Assembly: GCF_018531375.1 (NCBI RefSeq)
Contig: NZ_JAHBOH010000002.1
Location: forward strand, 558,001-622,000
Source: Cellulomonas fulva
Lineage (GTDB): Bacteria; Actinomycetota; Actinomycetes; Actinomycetales; Cellulomonadaceae
Length of the DNA stretch: 64,000 bases
Direction: 5' to 3'
This document shows positions 6,818 through 41,039 of the stretch, piece after piece. The notes beneath the pieces are model-generated. The model saw only the letters and a program-made list of their open reading frames with translations, was not told where the DNA came from and made no database searches. The translations under genes were made by a program, and so were the position numbers. Within the stretch, counting starts at the first letter, position 1, and the number at the start of each line of letters is the position of its first letter.

Positions 6818-8901
6818 GCGGGTCCGCCGCGGGAGGTGAGCCGGGCGCCCACGCGTTCCAGGTCGACCTGCGCGGTGTCGTCGACCTGCTCGCCCGGCAC
6901 CTCTACTCCGGTCCGCGGGTGTACCTGCGGGAGCTCCTGCAGAACGGGGTCGACGCCATCACCGCGCGCCGGGCGGTCGATGCCGGGGCACCCGCGCGGG
7001 TGCGGCTGCGGCCGCTGCCCGGCGGGGGGCTCGAGGTCACCGACTCGGGCGTCGGGCTCACCCCGCAGGAGGCCCGCGACCTCCTCGCGACGATCGGTCG
7101 GTCGTCGAAGCGCGACCTCGACCTGGGCGTCGGCCGCGACGAGTTCCTGGGGCAGTTCGGCATCGGGCTGCTGTCCGCGTTCATGGTCGCGGAGAGCATC
7201 GAGCTCGTCTCGCGCTCCGCGGTGGACCCGACGGCACCGGCGGTGCGCTGGCGCGGCTTCGACGACGGCAGCTACACGCTGGACGTGCTGCCCGACGCGT
7301 CGGTCGAGCCGGGCTCGACCGTGCGGCTGCAGCCGCGCCGTGACGCCGAGCACTGGCTCGAGCCGGCGACGGTGGTGACGCTCGCCGAGGAGTTCGGCGG
7401 GCTGCTGCCCGTCGACGTCGCGGTCGAGGTGCCGCTGCACGCTCCCGGGCAGCCCGACGAGCCAGCGCACGGCGAGCAGGCCAACAGCGAGCAGGCCAAC
7501 AGCGAGCGGGCGCACGACGAGCGGCAGCGCGTCTGGCGCCGGACGAGCGCGACCGAGCTCCCGTGGCGCGCCGCGCGGCCCGACGAGGACGCGGAGGACC
7601 GGGCCACGCGTCTCGCGGGCTACTGCGAGCGCACGTTCGGCTTCGTGCCGCTCGCGCACATCGACCTCGACGTCCCGGTCGCGGGCGTGAGCGGGGTCGC
7701 GTTCGTCCTCCCGCAGAGCGCCCCGGCGTCGTCGGCGGTGCACCGCGTGTACCTCAAGCGCATGCTCCTGGGCACGCGCGTGCCGCAGGTGCTGCCCGAC
7801 TGGGCGTTCTTCGCGCGATGCGTGCTCGACGCGACCGCGCTCCGCCCGACGGCCTCGCGGGAGGCGCTCTACGAGGACGAGGTGCTCCTCGCCACGCGCG
7901 ACGCCCTGGGTGCCGCGGTGCGGGCGTGGACGCTCGACACGTTGCGCGCGCGCTCGGCGCTCACCCGCCGCTTCGTCGACGCGCACCACCTCGCGCTGCG
8001 TGCGCTCGCGACGACGGACGACGACCTGCTCGACCTCGCGGCCGACGCGCTGCCGTACGAGACGACGGACGGGGTGCGCACGCTGACCGAGGTGCGCGAG
8101 GAGACGGGCGGCGTGGTCTACGCCTCCACCGTCGAGGAGTACCGCCGCATCGCCGCCGTGGCACGGGCGCAGGGCCTCGTCGTCGTGAACGCGGGGTACG
8201 TGTACGACGCGGACATCCTCGCGCGGCTGGCGCGCCGGCACCCGACCTGGGGCGTGCGCCCGCTCGGCGCGCAGGACGTCGCCCAGGTGCTGTCGACGCT
8301 GCCGCCGGTCCGCGAGATCGAGCTCGCGTCGTTCGTCGCGTCGACGAACGCGGTCCTCGAGCCGCTCGAGTGCGAGGTGCAGCTGCGCGAGTTCGAGCCG
8401 ACGAGCCTGCCCGCGCTGCTCCTGCAGGACCGCGACGGCGAGCACCGGCGCACGCTCGCCCGCACGGTCGCCGAGGGGGACGACCTGTGGGGCGAGGTGC
8501 TCGCGGGCTTCGCCGAGGACGCGCAGCCTCGTCGGCTCGTGCTCAACTGCGCGAACCCCGTCGTCGGGCGCCTCGTGGACGCGCCGCCGGGCGAGGTCCG
8601 GGACGCGGGCGTGCGCTCGTTGTACGTCTCCGCGACGCTCCTGGCGGGCGAGCCGTTGCGCGCCCGCGACGCCGAGCTGATGAACGGGTCGCTCTCGGTG
8701 CTGCTCGAGGCGGGTCTGCCCGCCGTCACGTCCGAGACCGGCCGGGGACCCAGCGCGGACCCCGCCCCGGACCCCACCCCGGACCCCACCCCGGACCCCA
8801 CGACTGACCCCACGACTGACCCCACGACTGACCCCACGACTGACCCCACGACTGACCGCGCCCCGAAGCCCACGCACGACCCCACGGAAGGACACCGGTG
8901 A
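6814..8901 (+). CDS. HSP90 family (HtpG-like) ATPase
   Basis: A 695-residue protein starting at GTG 6814, overlapping the YbjN gene. The N-terminal GHKL ATP-binding fold is clear: LRELLQNGVDAIT (Glu40, Asn44), DSGVGLTPQEA, then GQFGIGLLSAFMV. The middle domain follows (FGFVPLAHIDLDVPV, LKRMLLGTRVPQVLPDWAFF, SREALYEDEVL). This matches the divergent actinobacterial HSP90 branch more than canonical HtpG. Insert 7474-7509 carries a short in-frame duplication (EQANS). The last 45 residues are an in-frame minisatellite giving PDPT and TTDP repeats, unlikely to be folded. The stop overlaps the GTG of the TPR gene, so the two proteins are made together. Confidence 0.85.
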   Translation: MSGSAAGGEPGAHAFQVDLRGVVDLLARHLYSGPRVYLRELLQNGVDAITARRAVDAGAPARVRLRPLPGGGLEVTDSGVGLTPQEARDLLATIGRSSKRDLDLGVGRDEFLGQFGIGLLSAFMVAESIELVSRSAVDPTAPAVRWRGFDDGSYTLDVLPDASVEPGSTVRLQPRRDAEHWLEPATVVTLAEEFGGLLPVDVAVEVPLHAPGQPDEPAHGEQANSEQANSERAHDERQRVWRRTSATELPWRAARPDEDAEDRATRLAGYCERTFGFVPLAHIDLDVPVAGVSGVAFVLPQSAPASSAVHRVYLKRMLLGTRVPQVLPDWAFFARCVLDATALRPTASREALYEDEVLLATRDALGAAVRAWTLDTLRARSALTRRFVDAHHLALRALATTDDDLLDLAADALPYETTDGVRTLTEVREETGGVVYASTVEEYRRIAAVARAQGLVVVNAGYVYDADILARLARRHPTWGVRPLGAQDVAQVLSTLPPVREIELASFVASTNAVLEPLECEVQLREFEPTSLPALLLQDRDGEHRRTLARTVAEGDDLWGEVLAGFAEDAQPRRLVLNCANPVVGRLVDAPPGEVRDAGVRSLYVSATLLAGEPLRARDAELMNGSLSVLLEAGLPAVTSETGRGPSADPAPDPTPDPTPDPTTDPTTDPTTDPTTDPTTDRAPKPTHDPTEGHR
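8767..8856 (+). repeat. In-frame 12-bp minisatellite at the 3' end of the HSP90-family gene
   Basis: Three 12-bp units coding PDPT (from 8767) run into five 12-bp units coding TTDP (8800-8856). Both arrays keep the frame, so copy number changes would lengthen or shorten the tail without breaking the protein. Confidence 0.9.
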
Positions 8902-10856
8902 CCACGACCGTCGAGGCGGCGAACCGCGAGATCAGCCGGCTGCGTGACCTGCCGTACGGGCTCGCGCGGACGGCCGCGTTCGAGCAGCTCGTCGCGCGGC
9001 TCGAGGCGGAGGGTCCGGAGGCGGCGCGCGCGTACGGCTACGCGGGCCTCGTCGAGTCGCTCGTGTGGGGCCAGGAGGTGCAGAAGGCGTTCGTGCCGTT
9101 CACCCGCTGGCTGCGCTGGGCCGACGAGCACCCCGAGCACCTCGACGACGGCGACTGGCACCTGCTGCACTGGTCGTTCAAGTGGATGGTCTCCGACCTC
9201 ATGGAGTACCCCTCGGTCTCGCGCGAGCAGATCGAGCGCACGCTCGCGGACATGGAGCGCCGGTACGCGCTCGCCGGCAACGGGATGAACGCGGTCCGTC
9301 ACGAGCGGTTCCTGTGGGAGTGGAGCCGCGGCACGCCGGACGCCGCCGCCGCCTACGAGTCCTGGGTCACGACGCCGCGCGACGACTTCTCGCAGTGCGA
9401 GGCGTGCGAGCCCGGCGACCGGGCGTCGTACCTCTTCGACGCGGGCCGCACCGACGAGGGCATCCGGCTGCTCGAGGCGACGCTCCCGCAGGACCCGCGG
9501 TGCGCGACCGAGCCCGCGGACATGCTCTCGCTCCTGCAGCTCGCCTACCTGGACGCCGGTCGCTACGACGACGCCGCACGCACCTACCGGCGCGCGCTCG
9601 CCTCCCTGGACCAGGCGGAGGGCGGCATGGTGGGCGCGCGCGGCCGCCACGTCGTGTTCCTGCTGCGTGCCGGGCACCGCGAGCGCGCGCTCGCGCGGCT
9701 CGTGGCGGAGGGGGCGCTGCTGGTCGCGGCACCGACCCCGTGGCTGCGCCTCGTCTTCCTGCGCCAGGCCGCGGGCGTCACCGCCTGGTGGCGCACGCAC
9801 GAGCCCGAGCGACCGGTCGCGATCGAGGGCGTGCCGGCCGGCACGGTCGCCGAGCTCGACGACTGGGTCCTGGCCCAGGCACGTGCCCTGACGAGCCAGT
9901 TCGACGAGCGCGACGGCACCGACGGCTCCGCCCGCGCGCTGGCGGAGGCGCTGGTGCTCGACGTGGTCACGGAGCCGGTCGACCTCACGGTGCTCGCGCT
10001 CGGCGGGCGGCGCGAGAGCGTCGCCCCGGCCGCCGACGGGCACGGGTCCGGACATGAGCCTGCCGGGACACGGGACGCCGGCCCGGCCGCCGACGGCACG
10101 TCGACGTCGCTCGACGACCGGCTGCGAGCGCTCTCGGCGAGCGCCGAGGACGCGTTCCGCCGCGGTGACCTCGCCGTCGCGGGCGAGGAGTACCAGCGCC
10201 TCGCCGTCGCGGCGCAGGACGGCGGGCTCCTGACCGCCGCGGGCATGGCGTACGCGGAGGCCGCGCGCTGTGCGCAGGAGCTGCACGACGAGGTGAGCGC
10301 GGGCTGGGCCTACGAGCAGGCGGTCGCGCTGCTGCGCGCGGGCGGCGCCGAGCCGCTCGTCGTGGCGGCCGTGGTCCGGGCGTGGGCGCCGGTCGCGGCC
10401 GAGCACGGCCGCGCCGAGGCGCTGCTCGACGAGCTCGCCCGCCTCGATGCCGCGCTCGGTGCCGAACCGGAAGCCGCGGCCGGCGGGGACGCACCCGACG
10501 AGGCGGCCACCGCGCTGCGGGCCGAGCGCGCGCGGCTGACCGACATCCGCGCGCGCACGCTCGCCACGCTGGGACGCGCCGAGGAGGCCGCCGGTCTCGC
10601 GGTGCAGGGCGCGGAGGCGTTCGCCGGCGTCGGCATGATCGCCTCGGCGTCGGACGCGTTCTGGCTGGCGGGACGGCTGCACCGCGACCTCGCGCAGGAG
10701 GACCGGGCGCTGTGGTGCCTGGAGTCCGCGGTCGAGGGCTTCGAGCTGGCGCGGGACCGGCAGCGCCGCGCGGGCGCCGCGGGCGACCTCATCACCCTGC
10801 TGCGGGCGCGGGGCCAGGACGGCCGTGCGGACGAGCTGGCGCGCAGCCTCGCCTGA
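8898..10856 (+). CDS. Tetratricopeptide-repeat protein, HSP90-linked
   Basis: A 652-residue, Ala/Arg/Glu-rich helical protein with TPR-like helical pairs, for example AYLDAGRYDDAARTYRRALASLDQ near residue 215 and AEDAFRRGDLAVAGEEYQRLAVAAQDGG near 415. A low-complexity Gly/Ala/Asp linker around residues 370-400 splits it into two helical halves. No signal peptide or membrane segment is seen, so it should be cytoplasmic. It starts at GTG 8898 inside the stop of the HSP90 gene. TPR proteins commonly serve HSP90 as co-chaperones in eukaryotes; a similar pairing here is an inference from coupling. Confidence 0.75.
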   Translation: MTTTVEAANREISRLRDLPYGLARTAAFEQLVARLEAEGPEAARAYGYAGLVESLVWGQEVQKAFVPFTRWLRWADEHPEHLDDGDWHLLHWSFKWMVSDLMEYPSVSREQIERTLADMERRYALAGNGMNAVRHERFLWEWSRGTPDAAAAYESWVTTPRDDFSQCEACEPGDRASYLFDAGRTDEGIRLLEATLPQDPRCATEPADMLSLLQLAYLDAGRYDDAARTYRRALASLDQAEGGMVGARGRHVVFLLRAGHRERALARLVAEGALLVAAPTPWLRLVFLRQAAGVTAWWRTHEPERPVAIEGVPAGTVAELDDWVLAQARALTSQFDERDGTDGSARALAEALVLDVVTEPVDLTVLALGGRRESVAPAADGHGSGHEPAGTRDAGPAADGTSTSLDDRLRALSASAEDAFRRGDLAVAGEEYQRLAVAAQDGGLLTAAGMAYAEAARCAQELHDEVSAGWAYEQAVALLRAGGAEPLVVAAVVRAWAPVAAEHGRAEALLDELARLDAALGAEPEAAAGGDAPDEAATALRAERARLTDIRARTLATLGRAEEAAGLAVQGAEAFAGVGMIASASDAFWLAGRLHRDLAQEDRALWCLESAVEGFELARDRQRRAGAAGDLITLLRARGQDGRADELARSLA

Positions 10857-21495: not shown

Positions 21496-22260
21496 TCAGA
21501 GGCTCCGCAGGACGCTGACGACGCGGCCGAGCACGGTCGCGTCGTCACCGGGGATCGGCGCGTAGGCGGCGTTGTGCGGCAGGAGCCACACGTGCCCGTC
21601 GGCGCGCCGCAGCGTCTTCACCGTGGCCTCGCCGTCGAGCATGGCGGCGACGATCTCCCCGTTCTCCGCCACGGGCTGGCGTCGGACGACGACCCAGTCG
21701 CCGTCGCAGATCGCCGCCTCGATCATCGAGTCGCCGCTCACCTTCAGCAGGAACAGCTCGCCGTCGCCGACCAGCTGCCGGGGCAACGGGAACACGTCCT
21801 CGACCACCTGGTCCGCGAGGATCGGGCCGCCCGCGGCGATGCGACCGACCACGGGGACGTAGGACGGCGCCTGCAGCTGCTCCCGCCCCGCGCCCTCGCC
21901 GAGGTCGACCTCCGACGGCACGCCGTCCCACGTGCCGACCGTGCGCGCGTCGTCCGCCTGCACGACCTCGATGGCGCGCGGGCGCTTCGGGTCGCGGCGG
22001 AGGTAGCCCTTGCGCTCGAGCGCGGTCAGCTGGTGCTTGACGCTGGACGGGCTCGTGAGCCCGACGGCCTCGCCGATCTCCCGCATGCTCGGGGGGTAGC
22101 CGCGCGACTCGACCGACGTCCGGATGGTCTGGAGCACCAGCCGCTGACGGGCCGTCAGGCCGTCCGCGCCGGCCGGCGTCTCGAGCTCGTGCACGGTCGC
22201 TCCCGCGTCCCGCGCCTCGTCGATCGTCGCCTGCGTGTCGTCTGCCACGTCGTCCCCCAC
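21496..22260 (-). CDS. lexA: SOS repressor LexA
   Basis: LexA represses DNA-damage genes until RecA filaments trigger its self-cleavage. The 254-residue protein has an N-terminal winged helix ([34 protein letters not shown]), the cleavage site Ala143-Gly144 in RIAAGGPI, and the Ser178 (GDSMIEAAI) and Lys215 (GEATVKTL) catalytic dyad. Length includes a 33-residue acidic lead before the HTH. Start is GTG 22260; in-frame GTG 22248 is an alternative. The promoter lies 230 bases upstream with an SOS box over its -35, so autoregulation is expected. Confidence 0.97.
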
Positions 22261-22488: not shown

Positions 22489-22517
22489 AGCCTACGCAGG
22501 CCGAGCACGGAACTCAA
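22489..22517 (-). promoter_or_regulatory. lexA promoter (TTGAGT-17 bp-TAGGCT)
   Basis: Read leftward, -35 TTGAGT is at 22517-22512 and -10 TAGGCT at 22494-22489, with a 17-bp spacer. The SOS box at 22514-22529 covers the -35. Transcription should begin near 22482, leaving a leader of roughly 220 bases before the GTG at 22260, in which I see no other convincing gene. Confidence 0.65.
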
Positions 22518-22529
22518 ACATCTGTTCGA
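22514..22529. promoter_or_regulatory. SOS box (LexA operator) between lexA and the LysM gene
   Basis: TCAAAC-ATCT-GTTCGA matches the actinobacterial/Gram-positive LexA operator TCGAAC-N4-GTTCGA in 11 of 12 positions. It sits on the -35 of lexA. Confidence 0.85.
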
Positions 22530-22565
22530 GATCTGTGGACGCGTGTCGGAGGCCTCTGGTAGACA

Positions 22566-22596
22566 TCGTACAGACGTACGTCGAACAGACGTATGA
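22566..22596. promoter_or_regulatory. Two abutting SOS-like sites upstream of the LysM gene
   Basis: TCGTAC-AGAC-GTACGT (22566-22581) and TCGAAC-AGAC-GTATGA (22581-22596) both keep the 6-4-6 layout of a LexA operator, share the AGAC spacer and share one base. Each departs from consensus in two to three positions, so they may be weaker sites. A further half-site GTTCGAA lies at 22606-22612. Confidence 0.45.
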
Positions 22597-22664
22597 CGGA
22601 CAGGCGTTCGAAGCCCCGCCGGAACGGCGGGCGACGCGGATGCGACGAGGAAGGGATCGGCGAG

Positions 22665-23075
22665 ATGAGCGCGATGGTGATCGGCCCGGCGATCGGACGA
22701 GGCACGGCGGCGCACGGCTCTCGGCCGGAGCGGGCGCGCCAGGCGCAGACGCGCGGGGCGCAGGCGCGTGCGCAGGTGCCGGCCGGCGGCGAGCTCCGGC
22801 TCACGGCCCGCGGCCGAGCCCTGCTCGTCGTGCTGGCACTCGTCGCGGTCGCCGCCGCGTTCTTCGCGGGGGCCCGGGCGAGTGCGGCTGACGACGCCGC
22901 GCCGAACGTCGACCGGTACGTGGTGCAGTCCGGCGAGACGCTGTGGGGGATCGCCGAGTCCTCGCGGGCGGCCGGCGAGTCGGTGGCCGAGCAGGTTCGC
23001 GAGCTCGTGCGCGTCAACGGGCTCTCGGGCTCGCAGGTGATGGCGGGCCAGGAGCTCGTGGTCCCGCGCGGCTGA
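22665..23075 (+). CDS. LysM membrane protein, probable SOS-induced division inhibitor
   Basis: A 136-residue protein with a basic cytoplasmic N-terminus, one membrane helix (residues 48-67, ALLVVLALVAVAAAFFAGAR) and an external LysM domain (YVVQSGETLWGIAESS to LVRVNGLSGSQVMAGQELVV) that should bind peptidoglycan. It is divergent from lexA. That is the position of Mycobacterium Rv2719c (ChiZ), Corynebacterium divS and Bacillus yneA, which hold back cell division in the SOS response; Rv2719c and YneA also carry LysM. The role is inferred from this context and from the SOS sites. ATG 22665 has the Shine-Dalgarno aggaaggg; ATG 22593 lies inside the operator and is rejected. Confidence 0.8.
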   Translation: MSAMVIGPAIGRGTAAHGSRPERARQAQTRGAQARAQVPAGGELRLTARGRALLVVLALVAVAAAFFAGARASAADDAAPNVDRYVVQSGETLWGIAESSRAAGESVAEQVRELVRVNGLSGSQVMAGQELVVPRG

Positions 23076-35216: not shown

Positions 35217-36146
35217 CGCGTCCGCCGCAGCTCCGCCGTCCGGCGCGGGCGGCGGGTCCCGCAGCACCGGCGCACCTGCGACAAAGGCGCGCAGCTCGTC
35301 GCCGCGCAGCAGCCGCGCCGGTGCCGGGAGCGTGCGCACGGCGCGCGCGAGCCCGGCGACCCCGAGCAGGTCCTCGTCGTGCGCGGCCGCCACGACGACG
35401 TTGCCGTAGCCCCGTCCGCGCAGGAGCGCGGGCTCGGCGATCACGGCGACGTCCGCGAACGCCTCGCGGAGCGTCGCGATCTCGCTGCGCGCGAGCGTGA
35501 GCGGCGGCCGGTCCGCGCAGTTCACCAGGTACACGCCCCCGGCCCGGACGACGCGGGCGGCCTGCTGCGCGACCTCGAGGGTCGTCAGGTGCGCAGGCGT
35601 GCGGTCGCCGGCGAACACGTCGCGCACGACGACGTCCGCGCTCGCGTCCGCGAGCCGTTCGAGCTGCTCGCGCGCGTCTCCCGCCCGGATCCGCAGGGCG
35701 GGTGCCCGGGGGAGGCCGAACCAGGTGCGCGCGAGCTCGGGCAGCCGCGCGTCGAGCTCCACCGCGAGCTGCCTCGAGCCGGGGCGCGTCGCGTCGAGCG
35801 CGCGCGCGAGCGCGCAGCCGCCGGCGCCCAGGTGCACCACGTCGAGCGGCGTCCCGGGGCGGACGACGTCGATCACGAGCGCCATCTGCTGCATGTACTC
35901 GAACGCGAGGACCCCGGAGTCCTCGAGGTCCACGTACGAGCTCGGCACGCCGTTGACCAGGAGCGTGGCGCCGGAGGCGTGGTCGGGGTCGGGTCGGACC
36001 TCGACGGTGCCCGTCGGGACCTCGACCGGCCCGTCGGGCCAGCCCGCTCGCAGTGCCGCCGGCCCGCCGCGGTGCGAGGCAGCCGCGCGTGCGGAGCCGG
36101 GTGTCGGTGGTCGGTGGGAGCCTTCACGTCGTCGGGCCGCGGACAT
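35199..36146 (-). CDS. Spermidine synthase-like methyltransferase-fold protein
   Basis: A 315-residue protein with the spermidine-synthase fold: LLVNGVPSSYVDLEDSGVLAFEYMQQMALVI, the SAM-type Gly-rich motif VVHLGAGGCALARAL, acidic VELDARL, AGDAREQLERL and VVRDVFAGDRTPAHL. Such stand-alone actinobacterial proteins are often called fused or SpeE-like, but many lack proof of aminopropyltransferase activity, and no SAM decarboxylase lies nearby. The first 40 residues are basic and low in complexity. ATG 36146 follows a -10 TAGAGT by exactly six bases. Confidence 0.75.
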   Translation of the reverse strand: MSAARRREGSHRPPTPGSARAAASHRGGPAALRAGWPDGPVEVPTGTVEVRPDPDHASGATLLVNGVPSSYVDLEDSGVLAFEYMQQMALVIDVVRPGTPLDVVHLGAGGCALARALDATRPGSRQLAVELDARLPELARTWFGLPRAPALRIRAGDAREQLERLADASADVVVRDVFAGDRTPAHLTTLEVAQQAARVVRAGGVYLVNCADRPPLTLARSEIATLREAFADVAVIAEPALLRGRGYGNVVVAAAHDEDLLGVAGLARAVRTLPAPARLLRGDELRAFVAGAPVLRDPPPAPDGGAAADAPRAAP

Positions 36147-36152
36147 CCCACG

Positions 36153-36158
36153 ACTCTA
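36153..36158 (-). promoter_or_regulatory. -10 box TAGAGT of the spermidine-synthase-like gene (leaderless)
   Basis: TAGAGT read leftward, six-base gap, ATG at 36146. The expected -35 zone (36181-36176) lies inside the left arm of the 14-bp inverted repeat 36172-36216. Confidence 0.5.
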
Positions 36159-36171
36159 CGCACCGGCGGTT

Positions 36172-36216
36172 TCTTCCGCGGACGTGGCAGAGCTCGTGGC
36201 GGACGTCCGCGGAAGA
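36172..36216. repeat. Perfect 14-bp inverted repeat in a divergent promoter region
   Basis: Arms 36172-36185 and 36203-36216 are exact reverse complements around a 17-base centre. It lies over the -35 zone of the leftward gene and about 40 bases upstream of the -35 of the HEPN-dinB promoter, so it could be an operator or a cruciform/hairpin. Confidence 0.85.
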
Positions 36217-36257
36217 CCAGCGCGCGAGAGCAGTGGTCCGGGAGGCTTCTCGGACAC

Positions 36258-36286
36258 TTGACGAGTTCGAACATGCGTTCGATACT
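36258..36286 (+). promoter_or_regulatory. HEPN-dinB promoter (TTGACG-17 bp-GATACT)
   Basis: -35 TTGACG at 36258-36263 and -10 GATACT at 36281-36286, spacer 17 bp filled by an SOS box. Transcription should start near 36293, with GGAGG at 36293-36297 as ribosome-binding site. Confidence 0.75.
36267..36282. promoter_or_regulatory. Perfect SOS box (LexA operator)
   Basis: TCGAAC-ATGC-GTTCGA is a perfect palindromic LexA operator placed between -35 and -10, where bound LexA would shut the promoter. Confidence 0.93.
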
Positions 36287-36305
36287 GGGAACGGAGGTGG
36301 TCGGG

Positions 36306-36758
36306 ATGGGTGCACAGCGAACGGCGGCGCGTGGCGGAGGACGTCCGCAGGAGCTGCTGGCGCGCGCGGACGCCGAGCTCCTGGCCGCCCAGTACTCGGC
36401 GGAGCCGTGGGAGCGGTTCAGCCACGCGCACCTCGCCGGGCTGCGTGCCGCCGCCGCCGTGGTCGCGCGGCGCGGCGCCCCGGGCGGTCGTGGGGCGCCC
36501 CGTACGGTCTGGGGCATGGTGGACGCGGTGGCCCCGGAGCTCGCGGACCTCGCCGCGTTCTTCGCCGACGGCGCCGCCCTGCGCTCCGCGGTCGACGCCG
36601 GCAGGTTCGACCGGGTGACCGAGGAGCGCGCCGAGCGCACGCTGTGCCTGGCGGAGGACCTCGTGGACGCGGCGCACGCGCTGGTCGCTGCGGAGGAGCC
36701 GGTGCCCTTCGTGGCGCGGTCCGCCGCTCCGCGCATGCTCGCGGTGCGTGCGTCGTGA
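36306..36758 (+). CDS. SAV_6107-like HEPN domain protein, SOS-controlled
   Basis: A 150-residue all-helical protein resembling the SAV_6107 HEPN family: ELLARADAELLAAQYSAEPWERFSHAHLAGLRAAAAVVA, then GMVDAVAPELADLAAFFADGAALRSAVDAG and AERTLCLAEDLVDAAHALVA. HEPN proteins are often RNases with an RX4-6H motif; RFSHAH (Arg37, His42) could fit but lies earlier than usual, so activity is uncertain. It is the first gene behind a perfect SOS box and overlaps dinB by four bases. ATG 36306 has GGAGG eight bases upstream. Confidence 0.75.
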   Translation: MGAQRTAARGGGRPQELLARADAELLAAQYSAEPWERFSHAHLAGLRAAAAVVARRGAPGGRGAPRTVWGMVDAVAPELADLAAFFADGAALRSAVDAGRFDRVTEERAERTLCLAEDLVDAAHALVAAEEPVPFVARSAAPRMLAVRAS

Positions 36759-38083
36759 GTCGCGGTCCGCGCGCGGAGCACGTCCGGCGTGACTGGGGCG
36801 GGACCGAGGACGGGTGCTCGATCCTGCACGTCGACATGGACGCGTTCTTCGCCTCCGTCGAGCTCGCCCGTCGGCCGCAGCTGCGGGGCCGGGCGGTGAT
36901 CGTCGGGGGTGCCGCGCGCGGCGTGGTCCTGGCCGCGACGTACGAGGCGCGGGCGTTCGGCGTGCACTCGGCGATGCCGATGGCGGCCGCGCTGCGGGCG
37001 TGCCCGCAGGCGATCGTGGTGCCGCCCGACCACAAGGCGTACCACGAGGTCTCGGTCGGCGTGATGGAGGTGCTCTCGGACGTCACCGCGCTCGTGGAGC
37101 AGGTCAGCATCGACGAGGCGTTCCTCGACGTCCAGGGCGCCCGGCGCCGGCTCGGCCCACCGACGACGATCGCGGCGCACATCCGGGCGCAGGTGCTGTC
37201 CCGGTACGGCATCACGTGCTCCGTCGGCATCGGCGCCACCAAGTTCGTCGCCAAGCTGGCGTCCGGGCACGCGAAGCCGGACGGTGTCCTGCTGATCCCG
37301 CGCGCGGCGACGGTCGACTTCCTGCGCGCCCTGCCGGTGGGCGCCCTGTGGGGCGTCGGCGAACGGACCGAGGCCTCGCTCGCCCGCTGGGGCATCAGGA
37401 CGGTCGCCGAGCTCGCGGACAGCGACGTCGGCACCGTCCAGCGTGCCGTGGGCAAGGTGGCGGGCGCGCACCTGTACGACCTGGCGTGGGGGCGTGACCC
37501 GCGCCCGGTCCAGCCGGGGCGGGCGGAGAAGTCCGTCGGTGCCGAGGAGACCTTCGGTGCGGACGAGCACGACCTGGGCGTCGTGCAGGCGAAGGCGCTC
37601 GAGCTCGCGGACCGGTGCGCGCGGCGGCTGCGCCAGCGCGGGCTCGTGGGGCGCACCGTCAGCGTGAAGGTCCGCACGTCGGACTTCCGCACCCTCACCA
37701 GGTCGCGGTCGCTGACGGCGCCGACGGACGTCGGGCGCGAGATCTACCTCACGTCACGGGACCTGCTCGCAGGCGTCGACCTGCGCGGTCTTCCCGTGCG
37801 GCTGGTGGGCGTCCGGGTCGAGGGGCTGTCGTCGGTCGCGGACTCCGTGCGGCAGCCGACCTTCGACGACCTGTTCGCGGACGTCGCCGCAGGCAGCGGT
37901 GCCGCGGGAGTCGCCGAGCCGGCGCGCCGGTCGCCCGATCGCGAGGAGCGCAGGAACGCGGAGCTCGCGATGGACCAGGTGCGCGAGCGCTTCGGTGGCG
38001 CGGCGATCACGCCCGCGACGACGCTCGCGGCGCCCGTGTCCGACCGCTCGACTACCACCTTCCAGGTTGCGGATCTATCCTGA
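36755..38083 (+). CDS. dinB: DNA polymerase IV (DinB)
   Basis: DinB is a Y-family polymerase that copies past damaged bases. The 442-residue protein has the catalytic blocks LHVDMDAFFASVEL and VSIDEAFLDV, the steric region GVVLAATYEARAFGVHSAMPM, helix-hairpin-helix LPVGALWGVGERTEASL, and the little-finger part with VSVKVRTSDFRTLTRS. A likely sliding-clamp peptide is QPTFDDLF (near residue 368). A tail of about 60 residues follows. It starts at GTG 36755 within the stop of the HEPN gene and so is under the same LexA-controlled promoter. Confidence 0.95.
   Translation: MSRGPRAEHVRRDWGGTEDGCSILHVDMDAFFASVELARRPQLRGRAVIVGGAARGVVLAATYEARAFGVHSAMPMAAALRACPQAIVVPPDHKAYHEVSVGVMEVLSDVTALVEQVSIDEAFLDVQGARRRLGPPTTIAAHIRAQVLSRYGITCSVGIGATKFVAKLASGHAKPDGVLLIPRAATVDFLRALPVGALWGVGERTEASLARWGIRTVAELADSDVGTVQRAVGKVAGAHLYDLAWGRDPRPVQPGRAEKSVGAEETFGADEHDLGVVQAKALELADRCARRLRQRGLVGRTVSVKVRTSDFRTLTRSRSLTAPTDVGREIYLTSRDLLAGVDLRGLPVRLVGVRVEGLSSVADSVRQPTFDDLFADVAAGSGAAGVAEPARRSPDREERRNAELAMDQVRERFGGAAITPATTLAAPVSDRSTTTFQVADLS
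38076..38081 (+). promoter_or_regulatory. -10 box TATCCT at the end of dinB, for the DUF3040 gene
   Basis: TATCCT overlaps the dinB stop codon and lies about 41 bases before ATG 38122. No matching -35 was identified. Confidence 0.45.
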
Positions 38084-38121
38084 TCCCGTTCAGCACTTCT
38101 CACGGACCATCGGGGGTCGGG

Positions 38122-38526
38122 ATGCCTCTCTCCGAGTACGAGCAGCGCGTCCTCGAGCAGATGGAGCGCCAGCTGGCCTCCGACGACCCTCGGCTCGCGA
38201 ACACGCTCACCCAGCGCGGGCGCCGGTCGTTCGGCCGGTACCTCATCGCTGGCGCAGGTGCGGTCGTCGGCCTCCTGCTGCTCGTCTTCGGCGCGGCCTA
38301 CAGCGCGCCCGTGCTGGGCGTCGTCGGCTTCGTGGTGATGTTCGCTGCGGTCGCCTACGCCTTCGCCAACCCGCGGCGCTCCGGCTCCGGACCGCAGGGC
38401 GTGGTCACGGACGAGGGTGCCGTGCGCAAGCCCCGCTCCGGCCACGCGCCCAAGGCCGCCAAGCAGGGCTTCATGGCCCGCATGGAGGAGCGCTGGGACA
38501 AGCGCCGCGGCCAGGGCGGTCTGTAA
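38122..38526 (+). CDS. DUF3040 membrane protein
   Basis: A 134-residue protein of the actinobacterial DUF3040 family. It begins with the conserved PLSEYEQRVLEQMERQLASDDPRLA, has two hydrophobic helices (YLIAGAGAVVGLLLLVFGAAY and APVLGVVGFVVMFAAVAYAF) and a basic C-terminal tail. It lies on its own behind dinB, in the position next to the mra cluster seen in many relatives. The function is not known. The start ATG 38122 is where the family begins. Confidence 0.9.
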   Translation: MPLSEYEQRVLEQMERQLASDDPRLANTLTQRGRRSFGRYLIAGAGAVVGLLLLVFGAAYSAPVLGVVGFVVMFAAVAYAFANPRRSGSGPQGVVTDEGAVRKPRSGHAPKAAKQGFMARMEERWDKRRGQGGL

Positions 38527-38540
38527 GCCTTCCCGAGGTC

Positions 38541-38597
38541 AGCCCGCACCGGTCGAGCCCGCACCGGTCGAGCCTGCACCGGTCGAGGCCGCACTGG
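38541..38597 (+). repeat. 15-bp tandem repeat after the DUF3040 gene
   Basis: Units at 38541, 38556 (identical), 38571 (one change) and a decayed fourth at 38586. No gene is seen between 38527 and 38696. Confidence 0.85.
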
Positions 38598-38678
38598 CAT
38601 CACTCGGGCCGGCGCCGGCATCAGACGTCAGGACTTCCTGGCGAGCGAGGGCGTCCGGACGGCCAGGTCGTCCGGACA

Positions 38679-38694
38679 GTCAGGTCGTCCTGAC
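38679..38694. terminator. Weak hairpin between convergent DUF3040 and transglutaminase genes
   Basis: Stem GTCAGG (38679-38684) with CCTGAC (38689-38694), loop TCGT, next to two GTCCGGAC palindromes (38653-38660 and 38670-38677). It may end transcription from either side. Confidence 0.35.
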
Positions 38695-38696
38695 GG

Positions 38697-41039
38697 TCAC
38701 GACGTGGTGACCGGGCTCCGGCGGCCATCGCTCCGACGGCCGTCGCTCCGACGGCCCCAGCTGCGGCGGCCACGGCTCCCGCGGGCGGCGCGCACGCCGC
38801 CGGTCACCTCGTCGACCCAGCCCGCGAGCTGGCCGGGTTCCGGCGTCACCGCGTGCGGTGCGTACCGGGCCTGCTCGACCGCGAGAGCCAGCCGGGACAG
38901 CGCGAGCGTGGCCGACTCGGTGAGCCCCGCGCCGTCGCCGGCCGGCGCGCCGACCGACCAGGCGTCGACCTGCGCCGTGACGGACCGGACCGCGGCGCGC
39001 GGGGTCGTGGACGCGCCCCACCGGACCCCGTAGCGCGCCAGCGCGCGTCGCAGCCGGCTCCAGGCCTGCTCGGGCGTGAGCTCGGCCAGCACGCGGGAGC
39101 GCCGGCGCGTCAGCAGCAGGACGCCGCCCGTCCCGGCGGCGAGCACCAGGAGCACGGTGGCCGCAGCGGGGACCCACGGGACGTCGCTCTCGGTGTCGAC
39201 CGGGGCGGACACGCCCGGGGCGACGGTCGCGGTGCTCACGGGACCCGGAGCCGCGGTGGGGATCGCCGGCTCGGTGGGGCCGGAGCCGATGGTGTCGGCG
39301 TACGGATCGCTCCAGATCGGCGGCGCGCCGGTCTGGACGGCGGGGGTGGGCTCGAAGCGGACCCAGCCGTAGCCGTCGAACGCCAGCTCCGGCCAGGCGT
39401 GGGACTGCTGGCCGGTGATCACGTAGGAGCCGTCGTCGGCGGTCCCCGGCAGGAAGCCGACCCCGACGCGCGCGGGGATCCCCAGCGAGCGCGCCATCAC
39501 GGTCATGGCGGTCGCGAACTGCACGCAGTAGCCCTTGCGGGACTGCAGGAAGTCCCAGACGGCGTCGGGCGACTGCGCGGGGTCGATCCGGGTGTCGTAG
39601 GTGAAGTTCACGGCGGAGCGCAGGTAGGTCTGGAGCGCCATGGCCTGCTCGTACGGCGTCGTCGCGTCCTGGGTGACCTCGCGTGCGAGCGCCGCGATGT
39701 CCGCCGCGTGGGCGGTGGGGGGCACCTCGGTCGCCCGGGGGTCGCCGACCTCGCCGATGCCGACGCCCTCGAGGTCGTCGCCGGTCAGGTCGGGGATCTC
39801 GACGATGCTCCGCCAGCGCATCCCCTCGGTCGTGGGGTCGGCGCCGTCCACGGTGTCGCGGTCGACGTCCCAGCGCCAGGGCCCGTCGAGCTGCAGCGTG
39901 CGCGGGAACGTCGAGATCGGCAGCTGACGGTCCTCGAGGACGCCGACCTCCATGTCCACCTGGGCGAGCGTCCCGCGCCGGGGGTCGGGGGCGGTCCCGC
40001 GCAGGGCGGGGTCGGCGGCCAGGAGACCGTCGTCGACCGGGAGGCCGTCGTCGGTCGGCTCGTCCGCGTGCCAGGAGCGGCCGTCGAAGGACATGAGGGT
40101 GAACGCGCGCAGGGGCCCGATCGAGTTCGCGTTGACGGGGGGCGCCGTCGACGCGGCCGACGGGCTCGGCGCGGCGGACCCGTCCGCGCCGGCCTCGTCG
40201 GAGCCCGGCGGCCGGACCGTGTAGCGCAGCGCGACCTGGCTGGACCGCGTCCCGAGGCTCTGCCGCACGTCGAGGTCCGACGAGAGGTCGACCGGGCCCG
40301 CGGCGCCCGAGCCCAGGTTCGGCAGGCCCCACGACGACCAGCCAGGGAGCGCGGCGAGCGGCGGACCGGCGAGCAGCGCGACGGCGAGGATGCCGACCGC
40401 CGCTCCGGAGGCGAGCCCGACCCGGCGCGCCCCGTCGTCGCGCGCCGGCTGGGGGACGACGCTCAGCGCGAGCAGCAGCAGGTAGGCCAGGCCGGTCCAG
40501 AACAGCGCGGACCCGCGCGCCGGGAAGCCGAGCGCGATCGTCGGCGTCCACATCGCGGCGAACGCGAGGCCGGACCAGGCCGCCATGCCGAGCGCGACCG
40601 CCAGCAGGTCGGCGGCGAGCAGCACCGCGATCGCGCCGACGGCGATCATCAGCTCGAGCGGCCGGGTGACGTCCACGGGGACGGTGGACTCGTCGACCAG
40701 CCGCAGGCCCTCGCCCCAGAGCGCGACGGTGCGGTCCCAGGACGCGGTGTCGGGGACCAGCTGGAGCCGTCCGGGCGGCCCGCCGTAGCGGAGCAGGACC
40801 GCGACGCCCGCCACGACGAGCCCGACGACGCTGGGCAGCCGCACCGACCGCGTCACGGCCCGCACGACGACGACCACGGCGGCGACGACGAGCAGCAGGA
40901 GCACGATCGGGCTCCGCCACGGGGTCGCCCCCACCAGGTTGGTGAGCGCGTGCAGCGACGTCACGGTGGCGAACCAGCACAGGCCCGTCGCGGCGACCGC
41001 GCGCCAGCCGCGGGGCGGGACGGTGTGCAGGACGTTCAC
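38697..41039 (-). CDS. Transglutaminase-like membrane protein (DUF3488/transglutaminase core)
   Basis: A 780-residue membrane protein. The first 230 residues hold about six helices, followed by an external part with a transglutaminase-type papain-fold domain: Cys505 in SRKGYCVQFATAM, His in ITGQQSHAWPELAF and Asp in FDGYGWVRFEPTP. One more helix (WVPAAATVLLVLAAGTGGVLLL) precedes a cytoplasmic DUF4129-like tail. The final 25 residues are Arg/Ser/Gly repeats from a 15-bp duplication near 38715-38775. The triad is complete, so protease or cross-linking activity outside the cell is possible. GTG 41039 overlaps the DUF58 stop. The partners DUF58 and MoxR recur with this protein in many bacteria. 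Confidence 0.88.
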   Translation of the reverse strand: MNVLHTVPPRGWRAVAATGLCWFATVTSLHALTNLVGATPWRSPIVLLLLVVAAVVVVVRAVTRSVRLPSVVGLVVAGVAVLLRYGGPPGRLQLVPDTASWDRTVALWGEGLRLVDESTVPVDVTRPLELMIAVGAIAVLLAADLLAVALGMAAWSGLAFAAMWTPTIALGFPARGSALFWTGLAYLLLLALSVVPQPARDDGARRVGLASGAAVGILAVALLAGPPLAALPGWSSWGLPNLGSGAAGPVDLSSDLDVRQSLGTRSSQVALRYTVRPPGSDEAGADGSAAPSPSAASTAPPVNANSIGPLRAFTLMSFDGRSWHADEPTDDGLPVDDGLLAADPALRGTAPDPRRGTLAQVDMEVGVLEDRQLPISTFPRTLQLDGPWRWDVDRDTVDGADPTTEGMRWRSIVEIPDLTGDDLEGVGIGEVGDPRATEVPPTAHAADIAALAREVTQDATTPYEQAMALQTYLRSAVNFTYDTRIDPAQSPDAVWDFLQSRKGYCVQFATAMTVMARSLGIPARVGVGFLPGTADDGSYVITGQQSHAWPELAFDGYGWVRFEPTPAVQTGAPPIWSDPYADTIGSGPTEPAIPTAAPGPVSTATVAPGVSAPVDTESDVPWVPAAATVLLVLAAGTGGVLLLTRRRSRVLAELTPEQAWSRLRRALARYGVRWGASTTPRAAVRSVTAQVDAWSVGAPAGDGAGLTESATLALSRLALAVEQARYAPHAVTPEPGQLAGWVDEVTGGVRAARGSRGRRSWGRRSDGRRSDGRRSPVTTS

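Follow-up and report, generated by a model that had tools for sequence, protein, structure and literature searches.

Error-prone polymerase systems and the HEPN_SAV_6107 family

In actinobacteria, a phylum that includes both antibiotic producers and pathogens, the SOS mutasomes are responsible for mutation after damage, and the inventory of their parts is not yet complete. The ImuA'-ImuB-DnaE2 mutasome is encoded in a mutagenic operon behind a LexA box, and the actinobacterial DnaE2B-[ImuB-C]-PolY modules bring together DnaE2, an active Y-family polymerase and a small protein (PMC12926913). UmuD/UmuD', YqjX, SRAP and ImuB-C are examples of small proteins with a link to SOS whose genes adjoin those of Y-family or DnaE2 polymerases (PMC3765255, PMC12926913). 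HEPN is not mentioned in the main text of PMC12926913, nor in that of the S. venezuelae LexA paper; a literature search outside subscription papers and supplements found one paper naming SAV_6107, none linking HEPN with DnaE2 and none on DUF6504, a small protein that recurs below.

The actinobacterial family HEPN_SAV_6107 is listed as 'HEPN-M (SAV_6107)' by Anantharaman et al. (2013), where it is tabulated as lacking the Rx4-6H motif that sits at the end of helix 3; the table gives neither gene neighbourhood nor function for it (PMC3710099). The SOS control and the polymerase operons of this family are new here; they offer a clue to what this functionally uncharacterised HEPN family does, one that points away from the RNase role commonly assumed.

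A LexA box in the promoter of a HEPN-dinB operon

The window, that is, the whole 64-kb stretch of DNA that was analysed (558001-622000 of contig C2 in an actinobacterial genome of 3.74 Mb), carries the following features between a promoter at 36258 and a gene for a morphological-type protein ending at 38526:

36258..36263, plus strand: −35 hexamer TTGACG (promoter scan)
36267..36282, plus strand: LexA (SOS) box TCGAACATGCGTTCGA, with perfect palindromic half-sites, in the spacer and covering the first two −10 bases
36281..36286, plus strand: −10 hexamer GATACT (promoter scan)
36293..36298, plus strand: Shine-Dalgarno-like GGAGGT (sequence)
36306..36758, plus strand: HEPN_SAV_6107 family protein, 150 aa, HEPN fold, no canonical Rx4-6H
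36755..38083, plus strand: DinB-family (Pol IV) translesion polymerase, 442 aa, start overlapping the HEPN stop by 4 nt
38122..38526, plus strand: DUF3040/SCO2097-family protein, conserved next neighbour towards mraZ, a possible member of the operon

A promoter scan of both strands from 36100 to 38700 returned a single site, the sigma-70-type promoter TTGACG-17 nt-GATACT at 36258-36286, and shuffled-sequence controls gave a mean of 0.0 sites. The 17-nt spacer is taken up by the LexA box, which has 0 mismatches to TCGAAC-N4-GTTCGA. The HEPN ORF runs from an ATG at 36306 to a TGA at 36758 (PF18726, E=4.8e-24) and has GTGA in common with the start of dinB, whose GTG lies at 36755 and whose end lies at 38083 (IMS, E=9.4e-51); the IMS palm (PF00817), thumb (PF11799) and C-terminal (PF21999) domains of DinB each score above cut-off. 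On its other side the HEPN gene is flanked by a divergent methyltransferase-like gene with a weak Pfam match. A sequence-only reading of this DNA had described, over the span 36258-38083, a perfect palindromic SOS box in the spacer of a good promoter followed by a HEPN gene overlapping dinB, and this anatomy proved correct in each part. Compared with the DnaE2B-[ImuB-C]-PolY modules, the window's operon lacks DnaE2 and DUF6504; the ImuA'-ImuB-DnaE2 genes are likewise absent from it and are found elsewhere in the genome.

The repressor and two further sites lie in the same window:

21496..22260, minus strand: LexA repressor (PF01726 + PF00717)
22514-22529: SOS-box-like site between lexA and the divergent LysM gene, one mismatch
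22581-22596: SOS-box-like site between lexA and the divergent LysM gene, two mismatches

Perfect boxes occur only three times in the whole genome of 3,744,005 bases: at HEPN-dinB, upstream of the imuA'-imuB-dnaE2 operon (contig C1, box at 3004641, no HEPN alongside) and near a serine-recombinase-like gene. With up to one mismatch there are 36 boxes genome-wide versus 11 with a reversed control pattern. All three Y-family genes of the genome, namely the HEPN-linked dinB, a second dinB (one-mismatch box) and imuB, have a box in front. A box inside the promoter and a LexA encoded in the genome place the operon in the LexA/SOS regulon, and the proposed LexA control of the HEPN-dinB pair is thus supported at the level of sequence. 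LexA binding and induction by damage would be expected by analogy with cg2381 of Corynebacterium glutamicum, a probable orthologue discussed below. In the undamaged cell, LexA seated on the box between −35 and −10 would block RNA polymerase; upon damage, RecA-driven cleavage of LexA would free the expression of HEPN and DinB from one mRNA, with translation of DinB presumably beginning inside the HEPN stop.

Two other box-bearing sites of this genome were noted. A LysM-domain protein gene (22593-23075, plus strand) diverges from lexA across the SOS boxes within 22514-22611, an arrangement which we take to be like that of the YneA/DivS-type SOS division suppressors. The third perfect box (L041:4157-4172; C2:190156), identical in all 16 bases to that of HEPN-dinB, lies about 0.4 kb before the serine-recombinase-like ORF, possibly an SOS-triggered mobile element.

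Fold and motifs of the HEPN protein

The window's HEPN protein matches PF18726 with 85.2 bits (gathering cut-off 27.2) and no NCBIfam model. An AlphaFold2 model built from 94 window and locus sequences has a pLDDT of 89.7 and a pTM of 0.79, with a pLDDT of 92-99 per ten-residue block across residues 11-130. The nearest solved chain is 2hsb (Z 14.9, rmsd 2.7 over 116 residues), and a sacsin HEPN chain scores Z 13.3. Since Z values of about 13-14 are by themselves insufficient for helical bundles, the fold is assigned because four of the top five structural matches carry HEPN in their title. The folds of UmuD and YqjX are unrelated to HEPN. ImuB-C, too, differs in fold from this all-helical bundle (PMC12926913). 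No natural HEPN-polymerase fusion occurs in the 107 regions described in the next section.

W69 is invariant across the 94 sequences, and R47 belongs to the positions with at least 90% conservation; position 82 is L in the window protein and W in nearly all others. Across 107 sequences, position 37 is R in 86% and position 42 is H in 90%, and in the model this R37-x4-H42 pair lies where helix 2 begins. The end of helix 3, where Rx4-6H has its place, shows no conserved R-H pair in the 107 sequences. The Corynebacterium homologues lack both R37 and H42, yet they retain R47 and W69.

These features bear on whether the protein could be an SOS-induced, RNA-directed factor which cuts or binds RNA and restrains translation or growth during the action of the polymerases. 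RNase activity is the rule among HEPN families, R37-x4-H42 is well conserved outside Corynebacterium, and motif-less HEPN proteins have been toxic in genome-scale screens (PMC3710099). Such a role is nevertheless unlikely in our estimation, given the tabulated absence of Rx4-6H, the want of a conserved H at the end of helix 3, and the loss of R37 and H42 in Corynebacterium with R47 and W69 kept; nor is there an MNT nucleotidyltransferase antitoxin gene adjacent to the window's HEPN gene or a PADLOC match. RNase activity, raised by the sequence-only reading as frequent among HEPN proteins, found no support: it appears unlikely because Rx4-6H is absent and Corynebacterium has lost the R-x4-H pair. 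The possibility of a toxin or defence gene was likewise set aside, with no PADLOC match and no MNT partner.

Gene order in 107 HEPN regions

Neighbouring genes were compared in 107 HEPN regions from 41 families, hand-picked from coordinate-bearing matches (in most cases one or a few from each genus), with genes assigned by BLAST against the window genome and region L100, and with a box counted if it lay within 1.6 kb upstream of HEPN. A perfect box was found in 81 regions, a one-mismatch box in 12 and none in 14, although L154 and L166, scored as having no box from a wrong start anchor, each have a perfect one. The remaining DNA of these regions has 5 perfect boxes in 1,463,623 positions, so that about 0.6 would be expected against the 81 found. 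Perfect boxes are spread over 33 of the 41 families.

Error-prone polymerase genes lie downstream in 86/107 regions, again in 33/41 families. The next genes are DinB in 32 regions, a DUF6504-associated DnaE2 in 44 (36 of which have DUF6504 upstream of HEPN, with PF20114 confirmed for two), a methyltransferase and then DinB in 6, and ImuA'-ImuB-DnaE2 in 4 (L169, L182, L190, L193); a methyltransferase without polymerase follows in 4, no polymerase in 16, and one region (L104) was too short for its context to be judged. The fullest gene order is box-DUF6504-HEPN-DnaE2-methyltransferase-DinB-DUF3040, of which the operon in the window appears to be a shortened version. DUF3040 and mraZ are common wider neighbours. 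The DUF6504-HEPN-DnaE2-(MTase)-DinB arrangement has the same make-up of DnaE2, active Y-family polymerase and small protein as the DnaE2B-[ImuB-C]-PolY modules (PMC12926913), and DUF6504 may be the ImuB-C of those modules, although a profile comparison by hhalign did not connect the two (E 0.38).

The HEPN gene is thus a real, conserved member of the actinobacterial SOS regulon; in most cases, though not in all, it heads an operon of error-prone polymerases or lies close to its start. The HEPN-dinB pair itself recurs, with DinB next in 23 of the 24 regions of the window's own family, and the converse pattern, unrelated genes beside HEPN in most relatives, is not what the 86 polymerase-linked regions display. 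The partnership with DinB posited by the sequence-only reading holds insofar as DinB is often the next gene (32/107), but HEPN has at least two other polymerase systems as partners besides DinB, and the operon is therefore not a DinB-specific switch. Since the same HEPN and the same switch stand before three kinds of error-prone polymerase operon, the protein probably assists mutation after damage, in a role so far overlooked. With perfect boxes in 33/41 families and three polymerase systems, it is a concrete candidate for a missing mutasome part.

Partner exchange and loss

A quick tree of 94 HEPN proteins (158 columns; 14 of 91 inner branches starred) requires 17 context changes, versus 47 in shuffles. 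The four HEPN proteins from ImuA'-ImuB-DnaE2 regions form one group (support 72) inside the HEPNs of DnaE2 context, with one change needed, which indicates that HEPN swapped its partner system while keeping the SOS box and the adjacency to a mutagenic polymerase. In these operons (families f76 and f89) HEPN lies directly ahead of imuA', whereas the imuA'-imuB-dnaE2 operon of the window's genome is HEPN-less.

Neither partner is bound to the other. Each of the 32 genomes without HEPN that were examined has retained a Y-family polymerase, one or more (5/32 keep DUF6504), and HEPN is thus accessory. In the window's family, L302, L306 and L319 have a box ahead of dinB and no HEPN; three small genomes (L327-L329) have box-DUF6504-DnaE2, also without HEPN. 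Nine DinB-DUF3040 loci of families f2, f49, f52 and f63 (L298, L301, L303, L304, L310, L311, L313, L315, L321) have neither HEPN nor box in the 3.4-kb locus, from which it follows that box and HEPN tend to come and go together there. Conversely, HEPN is kept without a polymerase in Corynebacterium, in the Streptomyces-like family f5 and in several other families; away from the dcw genes it occurs with ImuA'-ImuB-DnaE2 (f76, f89) or alone (f75, f77). HEPN can exist without a linked polymerase, and a polymerase can be kept without HEPN.

This independent loss of HEPN and polymerases would suit an independent SOS effector that stays near polymerase genes only because both are regulated alike and their order is inherited; synteny could suffice to preserve the block box-(DUF6504)-HEPN-(DnaE2)-(MTase)-DinB-DUF3040. 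The exchange of partner to ImuA'-ImuB-DnaE2 speaks against such an effector, as do the occurrence of HEPN with DUF6504 on a phage-like element and the stop/start overlap before DinB: a HEPN stop of the ATGA/GTGA overlap type is found in 27/32 regions before DinB versus 3/16 regions without polymerase. We accordingly regard it, too, as unlikely.

In all four f5 regions (L033, L034, L035, L189), which have neither box nor polymerase, HEPN-methyltransferase-DUF3040 stands in the usual order with the box and dinB gone; the family's namesake, Streptomyces-like lineage seems to have left SOS control. The phage-like element is region L116 (f59, genome G463), where a second HEPN copy (8201-8626) is followed about 0.5 kb later by a DUF6504 gene (9126-9395), with no polymerase in the fetched 16 kb, making up a mobile HEPN-DUF6504 pair.

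Promoter types

In the boxed regions of the window's family (22/22) and of f57 (5/5), a TTGACN sequence ends 3-4 nt before the box, so that LexA would occupy the spacer in these two families; in other families a −10-like TAnnnT commonly lies ahead of the box. Promoters were also searched with the RecA-NDp consensus TTGTCRGTG-N8-TAnnnT. A RecA-NDp-like motif of at least 7/9 bases was found in 18 of 65 non-DinB-type promoters versus 16 of 18,600 control windows, and in none of 28 DinB-type promoters, the window promoter scoring 0. Given the role described for the RecA-NDp promoter, whose name we adopt (PMC6789036), this distribution suggests an added PafBC-type control in the non-DinB-type lineages and not in that of the window.

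In L125, TTGTCGGTG-N8-TACAGT lies within 60 bp upstream of the LexA box and matches the RecA-NDp motif at 9/9 bases; a perfect LexA box and HEPN come right after it, making this a candidate dual LexA/PafBC promoter.

Corynebacterium and published induction

Corynebacterium retains HEPN next to mraZ, usually behind an SOS box, and has no polymerase there. Among 20 regions of its family, 11 have a box with no more than one mismatch in the upstream 0.3 kb, and a polymerase follows HEPN in one (L214). A further set comprised 76 named loci, 73 of them titled Corynebacterium and C. glutamicum itself lying outside them; HEPN is at most 2.6 kb upstream of mraZ in 73/76, and no polymerase was found within about 5 kb of HEPN in any of the 76. 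A box of at most one mismatch lies within 450 bp in 25 loci, against a background of 4 in 727,293 positions; 35 loci have a two-mismatch box, a class beyond the background control, which covers at most one mismatch, and 16 have none.

The PF18726 profile matches in the C. glutamicum control genome. The conserved hypothetical gene cg2381 belongs to the C. glutamicum LexA regulon of Jochmann et al. (2009), as cited in PMC5055667, and rises by 3.86 log2 with ciprofloxacin, equal to recA (PMC5055667). Because the order in Corynebacterium is HEPN-DUF3040-mraZ and mraZ is cg2378 (PMC5055667), cg2381 is probably this HEPN, the HEPN_SAV_6107 orthologue.

The same arrangement could point to an SOS cell-cycle checkpoint, in which HEPN acts on division or on DUF3040 (the SCO2097 morphological protein) and the dcw genes, the polymerases being just co-regulated. 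DUF3040 and mraZ are common neighbours, the Corynebacterium box-HEPN unit stands directly ahead of DUF3040-mraZ, and mraZ falls as cg2381 rises with ciprofloxacin (PMC5055667). We consider a checkpoint distinctly unlikely, however, as HEPN away from the dcw genes accompanies ImuA'-ImuB-DnaE2 or stands alone, and SOS-linked candidates for such a role already lie beside lexA (divS in C. glutamicum, the LysM gene in the window).

A model for HEPN in error-prone synthesis

The data presented above have led us to favor a model whereby HEPN_SAV_6107 is a non-catalytic (non-RNase) helical protein that acts in error-prone synthesis, as an adaptor or a regulator, with several polymerase systems, a proposal drawn from operon context for which we judge the chances to be even. 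After damage, HEPN would recruit or restrain the error-prone polymerases encoded with it. A more elaborate version, which we put forward only tentatively, is a shared 'polymerase manager': a non-catalytic HEPN acting in the DinB, DUF6504-DnaE2-DinB and ImuA'-ImuB-DnaE2 systems, under LexA and RecA-NDp-like (PafBC-type) control in many lineages.

Distribution of PF18726

PF18726 is present in 194/198 genomes of the window's family, 110/248 of its order and 170/246 of its class. In the family containing Corynebacterium it is present in 150/161 genomes, and 10 of the 11 negative genomes belong to one genus (g7), inferred to be Mycobacterium-like. A phage or plasmid home for HEPN was considered and rejected: no HEPN match was found in 50,697 phage records or in PHROGs, and the single match in plasmid records, from Nonomuraea gerenzanensis, lies on an 11.85-Mb record that is probably a chromosome. 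The hypothetical protein-DNA polymerase IV pair of the S. venezuelae plasmid pSVJI1, a conceivable HEPN case, was not among the HEPN matches in plasmid records. The Nonomuraea gerenzanensis HEPN has two one-mismatch boxes in front.

Among 149 genomes drawn from the phylum, 14 match PF18726 and 9 pass the cut-off. Six of the 14 (L027-L032), excluded from every region count, are weak matches from other actinobacterial classes (E 1e-7 to 1e-4), several in AT-rich DNA; they have the motif GHHFTVFQ in common and probably represent a separate HEPN family.
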